Assembly: GCA_010672825.2 (NCBI GenBank)
Contig: JAAHFU020000002.1
Coordinates: 124,001-188,000 of the forward strand
Direction of reading: 5' to 3'
From: Leptolyngbya sp. SIO1E4
GTDB taxonomy: Bacteria; Cyanobacteriota; Cyanobacteriia; Phormidesmidales; Phormidesmidaceae
Length of the DNA: 64,000 nt
Under the pieces are notes generated by a model. It saw nothing but the letters and a program-made list of their open reading frames with translations, did no database searches and was not told the DNA's origin. The number at the start of each line of letters is the position of its first letter. The stretch's first letter is position 1. The position numbers and the translations under genes are program-made. This document shows positions 53,193 to 54,248 of the stretch, one piece after another.

Positions 53193-54248
53193 TTAATCAT
53201 CGCCGTCGTCATCGTCGTCGTCATCGTCGTCATCGTCATCGTCGTCGTCATCGTCGTCGTCGTCATCGTCATCATCGTCGTCGTCATCACCCGAGACCTC
53301 TGTCGATGTCTCCGTAGTGGTTTCGGTGGTGGTGGTTTCTGTCTCCTGGAAGACGCCGAATACATCAACGATGTAGTCTGAGTAGTATTTTTCAACCAAA
53401 TTCAGGCTCACCATTGCCTGGTGGATAAAGGTTGTGGCTTCTGCCCGAGTGACCAGCTCGAACAAATTGAGCTGGTTAACATTGGGGTAGTTAACGATGA
53501 TGCCCTTTTCGACCAGGGAAGCAATAATGACTCGATATTCGCTGGGGATGGTGTCAGCATCGACAAAGACACTCAACAGTTCCTCAACGGATCTGTCTGA
53601 GGTAATTTCGGTATAGCCCAGGGACTCTGCCAGCATTACCAACATCTCTAACTTGGTCATGTTGGCTTCTGGGTCAAAGGTATTATCGGGTGTTAGATCG
53701 ATAAACCCAGTCGCGTAGGCTTGCTGCAGCGCTGAATAAGCCCAGTAGTACTGAGAGACGTTGCGAATTGCCACAGCTTCCCGAATGGCGGATCTCCTAA
53801 ACGCCTTCGTTACGATCGAGGCATATTGGGCCTTCGTGAGATAGGTGTTAGGCAAGAACTCCCCATCTGGGAAACCCTCAATGACATTGATGCTGGCTAA
53901 TCGATAGATAAATCCACTGGCCCAATAGTTGGTGGTGACGTCAGTGTAGGAAACTTCTGTCACCGTTGTCGTGGTAGTCGTGGTTCTACGAGTCCCTTCA
54001 CGGCTGCGTTCCCCCCCATCGTCATCGTCGTCATCGTCATCGTCATCATCATCGTCGTCATCCTTTAGCTGGTCTTCGGGGAGTTCAGCCAGTTGAGTGG
54101 ATGAGGTGTCTGCATTGAATGTCGAGGCGGTCGCAGCTTCCGTAGAGACCGTTAGGGTGGCGAGGGGTGCTAGTAGAGGTGCCGCGATCGCAATCAGCAT
54201 TGCGAAAGGAGTTGTGTGTAACAGCAAACGATAAACAATTTGACCCAT
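53193..54248 (-). CDS. S-layer-homology protein with poly-aspartate tracts
   Basis: A 351-residue protein. A signal peptide (MGQIVYRLLLHTTPFAMLIA...) ends near residue 40. An acidic region of 15 consecutive Asp (residues 63-77) is followed by GGERS, a Thr-rich run (RRTTTTTTTVTE) and three SLH-type repeats (about 95-290: YTDVTTNYWASGFIYRLASINVIEGFPDGEFLP, YYWAYSALQQAYATGFID, and FVDADTIPSEYRVIIASLVEKGIIVNYPN). SLH domains bind secondary cell-wall polymers or peptidoglycan. After a second Thr/Glu-rich linker (TETTTTETTTETSTEVSG) comes an unbroken run of 28 Asp (321-348), then GDD at the end. I use ATG 54248 for the signal peptide; the frame is open from 54329. Calcium binding or mineral association is inference. 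Confidence 0.88.
   Translation of the reverse strand: MGQIVYRLLLHTTPFAMLIAIAAPLLAPLATLTVSTEAATASTFNADTSSTQLAELPEDQLKDDDDDDDDDDDDDDDGGERSREGTRRTTTTTTTVTEVSYTDVTTNYWASGFIYRLASINVIEGFPDGEFLPNTYLTKAQYASIVTKAFRRSAIREAVAIRNVSQYYWAYSALQQAYATGFIDLTPDNTFDPEANMTKLEMLVMLAESLGYTEITSDRSVEELLSVFVDADTIPSEYRVIIASLVEKGIIVNYPNVNQLNLFELVTRAEATTFIHQAMVSLNLVEKYYSDYIVDVFGVFQETETTTTETTTETSTEVSGDDDDDDDDDDDDDDDDDDDDDDDDDDDDGDD
53205..53288 (-). repeat. GAC/GAT microsatellite encoding 28 aspartates
   Basis: A triplet repeat (GAY) encodes 28 consecutive Asp near the C-terminus of the SLH protein. A second tract of 15 Asp codons lies at 54018-54062. Such trinucleotide arrays can slip, so tract length may vary among cells or strains. 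Confidence 0.9.

Follow-up and report, generated by a model that had tools for sequence, protein, structure and literature searches.

A poly-aspartate S-layer-homology protein of cyanobacteria as a candidate wall-anchored, cation-binding polyanion

The S-layer-homology (SLH) wall proteins Sap of Bacillus anthracis and SpaA of Paenibacillus alvei resemble a protein encoded in the 64-kb stretch of cyanobacterial DNA analysed here (the window, meaning the whole stretch) in having a three-SLH spindle, predicted in our case, and, as far as the motif register shows, one putative groove with Gly, Arg and Trp. In groove G1 of SpaA, pyruvate is held by Arg177 and Gly46, with Trp93 at the place of the stacking Trp, and the equivalents in groove G2 are Arg61, Gly109 and Trp151 (available part of PMC6081394). 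Unlike Sap and SpaA, the window's protein comes from a diderm cyanobacterium, its second groove is degenerate, and two poly-Asp arms stand in place of the S-layer body.

Among cyanobacterial proteins, the SLH-OprB porins Slr1841 and Slr1908 are comparable in the use of SLH as a peptidoglycan anchor; peptidoglycan is given as the binding partner of SLH in outer-membrane porins, and the account of pyruvate's role in cyanobacterial SLH binding is called far from complete (available part of PMC8707739). CsaB-like transferases have been reported as common in cyanobacteria (extract of PMC6801904). The window's protein differs from the porins in having three SLH units and no barrel-sized part. Identification as an SLH-OprB porin was rejected, with OprB unmatched and SLH the sole Pfam family at E 0.001.

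Outside the Bacteria, aspein and other poly-Asp shell proteins combine a signal peptide with poly-Asp whose exact sequence is unconserved; aspein, from molluscs, binds Ca2+, its Asp-rich domains acting with calcium, and animals have well-described disordered acidic proteins that retain calcium and direct carbonate formation (available part of PMC9496343). The window's protein shares the poly-Asp and, by eye, the signal peptide, but it is bacterial, has an SLH anchor and shows no sign of common descent with aspein, and its calcium binding is putative. Cyanobacterial surfaces have been described as nucleation sites (extract of PMC12836880).

A further comparison is with cyanobacterial proteins that end in a two-Cys tail. 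The close orthologues of the window's protein carry this tail directly after their second tract, whereas the window's protein is without it. The calcium-loop beta domain of other tail proteins is absent from the window's family (36 genomes searched) and occurs in 8 of the 23 others. Both SLH-anchored proteins and poly-Asp proteins have been described before; a combination of the two with a conserved, unannotated tail was not found in the literature searched, where titles and abstract openings (many subscription papers lay outside the search) yielded no poly-Asp SLH protein of cyanobacteria. To our knowledge, no defined poly-Asp protein has been tied to mineral nucleation in cyanobacteria.

The gene, its SLH core and its neighbourhood

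The window lies on contig C2 of the 8.2-Mb genome (G000) of a filamentous cyanobacterium, and its ORF reading gives a 351-aa protein with an ATG start and a TAA stop. The original prediction had placed Asp runs of 15 and 28 residues in this ORF, and both its coordinates and its run lengths were exact. The features of the locus are as follows.

53193..54248 (-): poly-Asp SLH protein, 351 aa (ORF; PF00395 at 70.4 bits; predicted charge about -63 at pH 7)
54126..54248 (-): probable Sec signal peptide, residues ~1-41 (by eye)
54018..54062 (-): D15 tract, residues 63-77 (ORF translation)
53820..53951 (-): SLH repeat 1, residues 100-143 (best Pfam stretch; whole-genome Pfam search)
53643..53756 (-): SLH repeat 2 (Pfam, profile positions 6-43; positions 177643-177756 of G000 contig C2)
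53406..53567 (-): SLH repeat 3, degenerate, residues ~228-281 (predicted fold and SLH-trimer match; unscored by Pfam)
53307..53345 (-): Thr/Glu linker ETETTTTETTTET, residues 302-314 (translation)
53205..53288 (-): D28 tract, residues 321-348, then GDD and the stop (ORF translation)
54483..54911 (-): DUF2358 gene, the upstream neighbour on the same strand (PF10184; adjoins the poly-Asp gene in 5 genomes)

By eye, the signal peptide consists of a hydrophobic stretch followed by A-T-A ahead of the mature end, and the protein is probably exported. The Thr/Glu linkers that had been proposed are present, as T7 at residues 89-95 and as ETETTTTETTTET. Across all six frames of the 64 kb, the only runs of at least seven identical residues are D15, D28 and T7 of this one protein and their antisense readings. 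About 310 residues follow the signal peptide, some 200 of them SLH, and no separate domain for an S-layer lattice was seen.

Three SLH repeats had been predicted. Pfam (PF00395; cut-off 20.8 bits) scores only two stretches; the third unit, degenerate in sequence, is present in the predicted fold, which matches SLH trimers and thereby argues for three units. A profile built from 19 cores matches nine distinct PDB sequences, including 3pyw, 6bt4 and 8bz2. The AlphaFold (AF2) model of the 209-residue core, made from 26 sequences (pLDDT 88.3, pTM 0.86), aligns with the Sap SLH trimer 3pyw over 176 residues at 3.2 Å (Z 19.5), and with SpaA-SLH structures, several of them with bound pyruvyl sugar, at Z 15.5-17.4. 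The core is thus predicted to form the three-SLH spindle with its pseudo-threefold arrangement.

The pyruvyl-sugar residues (Gly29, Arg43 of TRAE and Trp13), read by motif register and not from superposed coordinates, form a G1-type set of G125, R268 and W169 (conserved in 26, 26 and 25 of the 26 cores, respectively) and no G2-type set. The G2 equivalents are degenerate: the Arg of SLH1 is K139, the Gly of SLH2 is L185, and the Trp of SLH3 is absent. One pyruvyl-sugar groove is plausible because the G1 residues are conserved while those of G2 are not. The genome has five places of the pyruvyl-transferase family PF04230. These genes bear only indirectly on binding to wall polysaccharide; by homology of the core, the protein would be anchored to the wall through SLH.

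The order poly-Asp gene, DUF2358, DUF1499, PCC and SDR is common to the window's genome and to G001, G014, G027 and G032. Genome G022, of the same genus as these last four holders, has a different ORF at the syntenic place and no poly-Asp gene within 1.5 kb, so the gene can be dispensed with there. A palindrome, CCTCCCCTTGCCAAGGGGAGG, lies just downstream of the window's gene at 53129-53149; its interpretation as a terminator was rejected, since a T-run is absent and the RNA around it gains no folding stability over shuffled sequence (z -0.36). Elsewhere in the window, an ORF at 35757-36953 (+) resembles, by eye, CobW-type GTPases that act as metal chaperones; it has a long insert rich in His and Asp, with tandem DNA repeats at 36515-36616. 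A 578-aa protein at 639-2375 (-) has a long run of Gly-rich PTVIGGG-type repeats encoded by 24- and 30-bp tandem DNA repeats (1241-1634).

Distribution of the tracts, the two-Cys tail and related architectures

Core matches were found in at least 56 of 59 genomes and are mostly general SLH paralogues; names among the relatives that the core retrieved include Halomicronema, Nodosilinea and Leptolyngbya. Full-length matches at 50% identity or more occur in at least 20 genomes, the window's own included. Among the best rows of these 20 genomes, both tracts are present in 14, the C-terminal tract only in three (G015, G033 and G002) and no tract in three (G028, G052 and G008); a second copy in G028 (L091) has a D30 tract. 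Within the window's family, of which 36 genomes were searched, at least 18 carry an intact poly-Asp SLH gene; fragments are seen in G021 and a core-less form in G010. Genome G011 has a second copy on contig C4.

In a tree of 45 cores, whose midpoint root serves display alone, all 22 two-tract rows fall within a group of 31 (support 100/100), and five rows with the C-terminal tract only form a group of their own (100/99). The other 14 rows, named Nostocales among them, have the tail, and their Asp runs are missing or no longer than 14 residues. Since the tree groups the two-tract rows, the long two-sided poly-Asp is a feature of a lineage and not of one strain. The VNY motif is conserved among the fetched loci by selection of the data, the retrieval pattern itself having contained VNY. 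In the SLH relatives L084 and L079 (Leptolyngbya sp. FACHB-60, Nodosilinea sp. WJT8-NPBG4), a different stretch of about 90 residues stands where the C-terminal poly-Asp and the tail would be; each of the two genomes has a two-tract copy as well (L078, L082).

The C terminus is a conserved two-Cys tail in 18 of the 22 two-tract cores, where it directly follows the second tract and a basic stretch. It reads NCNQGIGNGxEGCDPGNSxPxGGSNDE before a short end, with 20 invariant columns over 14 tails, and has no family match in NCBIfam and a chance-level match only in Pfam (E 1.5). The tail occurs in 20 of the 59 relatives, at a single place in each except G049, which has two; it can be regarded as an unannotated module that marks a single locus in the other 19. 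Across the phylum it was found in at least 16 of 386 genomes, in a search limited to 19 scored candidates for each genome, the weakest match of which (G341, 24 bits) is doubtful; none of 72,556 plasmid records matched. The window's own genome gave no match to the tail pattern (CNQGxGNGxEGCDPG). A tail remnant behind the stop of the window's gene was looked for and rejected, with nothing similar in the three frames of the gene's strand. By these sequence comparisons, the window's protein is one that has lost the two-Cys tail. Eight of the at least 18 genomes with a poly-Asp SLH gene have an SLH gene without the tail in which poly-Asp is retained.

We sorted 43 distinct tail-bearing C termini by architecture, several of whose frames are cut at a locus edge, so that the absence of a domain there is uncertain. 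The order poly-Asp, SLH, poly-Asp and tail is found in 19; 11 have beta domain, SLH and tail; four have SLH and tail without the beta domain; and six have beta domain and tail without SLH, with poly-Asp preceding the tail in four of them. The remaining three have neither domain: L050, a contig-edge fragment, L097, the G010 form, and L063 of G028, a 269-aa frame with a tail and no SLH, beta domain or poly-Asp, whose N-terminal part looks by eye like the corresponding part of the beta-domain proteins. Searches with the beta domain gave nothing above cut-off in Pfam for three proteins and no NCBIfam family for two, and its model, from 4 sequences, is poor (pLDDT 50.4) and too weak for a structure search. 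All 17 beta-domain tail proteins have, by a loose match, a loop of the type DxDxDGxID after RTVYG, a pattern like that of dockerin and EF-hand-like calcium loops. It is tempting to read these architectures as poly-Asp having taken over from the calcium-loop domain, although a simple domain swap is disfavoured because four proteins (L149, L064, L065 and L066) carry both the calcium-loop domain and poly-Asp before the tail.

In G010, a 122-aa ORF beside DUF2358 and DUF1499 has a similar signal peptide, a D7ND6 run, the basic stretch and the tail, and no SLH. Among the matches listed for this genome, the best to the core is 36% identical, none exceeds 39%, and there is one tail. Because the two tracts are direct repeats, the simplest account would be a deletion between them; as the genome is in 250 contigs, the form may also be an assembly collapse between the tracts.

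Tract evolution and the possible function of the arms

The original prediction described the tracts as a GAC/GAT microsatellite prone to slippage. The mixture of the two codons is as described (7 GAC and 8 GAT in D15; 19 GAC and 9 GAT in D28), but the repeat is not pure, the longest single-codon runs being 3 and 4, respectively. Pure runs are seen in some relatives, up to 11 GAT in L036. Length does differ between species: summed per side and where tracts are present, those of 28 sequences span 10-37 codons ahead of the core and 10-34 behind it, and L028 and L078, with 95% core identity, have C-terminal tracts of 13 and 22. The closest pair (L027 and L028; 99.5% core DNA identity) has equal tract lengths, and in L035 and L036 (98.1% identity; D23 and D22) the codon string is largely rewritten, with the 11-codon GAT run. 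Such differences between close relatives show slippage or unequal exchange acting between species; rapid length switching is not indicated, given that no pure run in the window exceeds 4 codons and that the closest pair is equal. The long pure DNA repeat expected of a slippage-switched (phase-variable) gene is missing.

Of the 913 codons in 53 tracts from 29 sequences, 350 are minor Asp codons and 27 encode residues other than Asp (20 Gly, 5 Asn, 1 Tyr, 1 Phe and no Glu). Only 11-27% of single-base changes from GAY are expected to be synonymous under neutrality at transition/transversion ratios of 1-8, and the observed excess is very large. The test is biased towards purity, since tracts were defined as at least 75% Asp and mixed units can be copied by slippage, and we therefore take the excess as strong qualitative evidence and attach no P value. 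The 29 sequences were drawn from 47 rows after exclusion of nine duplicates, eight tract-less rows (L030, L037, L038, L079, L092, L093, L094 and L096) and L095, which has one 9-codon run; both members of the near-identical pair L027/L028 were retained, and the length used for the window's second tract, 31, takes in its GDD end. As L087 has no core by the pattern used, lengths and pair identities cover 28 sequences. These data suggest that selection keeps the Asp composition across genera while codons and lengths change, with arm length only loosely set.

Our preferred reading, which we hold with about even confidence, is that the protein is a secreted, wall-anchored polyanion whose poly-Asp arms bind divalent cations. 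After export, the three-SLH core would hold the protein to pyruvylated, peptidoglycan-linked polysaccharide through its one conserved groove, and the two unfolded arms would form a dense carboxylate brush taking up Ca2+ or other divalent cations in the envelope; selection would keep the composition of the arms and set their length loosely. The arms may be periplasmic, because the best-known setting of SLH in cyanobacteria is in proteins linking the outer membrane with peptidoglycan. Calcium would be favoured among the cations, since the Asp-rich domains of aspein act with calcium and sister architectures carry the calcium-type loop, and the lack of Glu among the interruptions suggests that not just any acid will do. 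Cation binding by the arms is a putative property, and mineral nucleation or templating at the surface a speculative one. The retention of poly-Asp in the eight tail-less genomes counts for the polyanion reading, as do the predicted SLH fold, the conserved G1 residues, the PF04230 places, the spread of the gene through the family and the excess of minor Asp codons. Against it we count the degenerate G2 groove, the tract-less orthologues (G008, G052 and one G028 copy), the lack of the gene at the syntenic place in G022, and the four proteins that have poly-Asp beside the calcium-loop domain.

The tracts might instead be flexible, soluble spacers (entropic bristles) for which any acidic disorder suffices, with the function residing in the SLH core. 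Wide length variation, the Thr-rich linkers that adjoin the tracts and the other linkers found in SLH-tail relatives (Met/Glu/Asp-rich in L037, Glu-rich in L092 and L093) would all be expected of spacers; yet a mere acidic spacer should tolerate Glu, which is one change from Asp and accounts for 0 of the 27 non-Asp codons, and G010 retains poly-Asp without an SLH core. We regard this explanation as unlikely, though worth keeping in mind.

Less probable still is that the tract pairs by charge with the basic stretch and two-Cys tail, or with a basic protein, in folding, secretion or complex formation, the window's tract being a remnant or serving such a partner. The succession of tract, basic stretch and Cys tail in tail-bearing orthologues, repeated in four of the six beta-domain proteins without SLH, speaks for a charge partner. 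Two facts sit poorly with it: among the at least 18 genomes that have a poly-Asp SLH gene, the eight in which this gene lacks the tail retain long tracts (D28 in the window's case), and the N-terminal tract is not accompanied by a basic stretch of the constancy seen at the tail. That the tracts are a functionless GAY microsatellite growing and shrinking neutrally we consider very improbable, because Asp is kept despite mixed codons, at two separate places and across genera, even if the pure runs of L036 and the unequal C-terminal tracts of L028 and L078 are what slippage would give.

An extended form of the polyanion reading, which we put forward as doubtful, is that, in a cyanobacterial envelope family, genetically encoded poly-Asp arms mounted on an SLH anchor replaced a folded calcium-loop domain. 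The arms would make a disordered, aspein-like calcium or carbonate scaffold of drifting length and selected composition, and one lineage would have lost the anchor by recombination between the tracts, leaving a secreted poly-Asp peptide.

The family offers a single-gene candidate with natural variants, which have two, one or no arms and occur with or without the tail and with or without the anchor. These variants make it directly testable whether an encoded wall polyanion alters envelope calcium or mineral formation, and the protein makes a good candidate for a molecule that retains calcium or other metal ions in the envelope.
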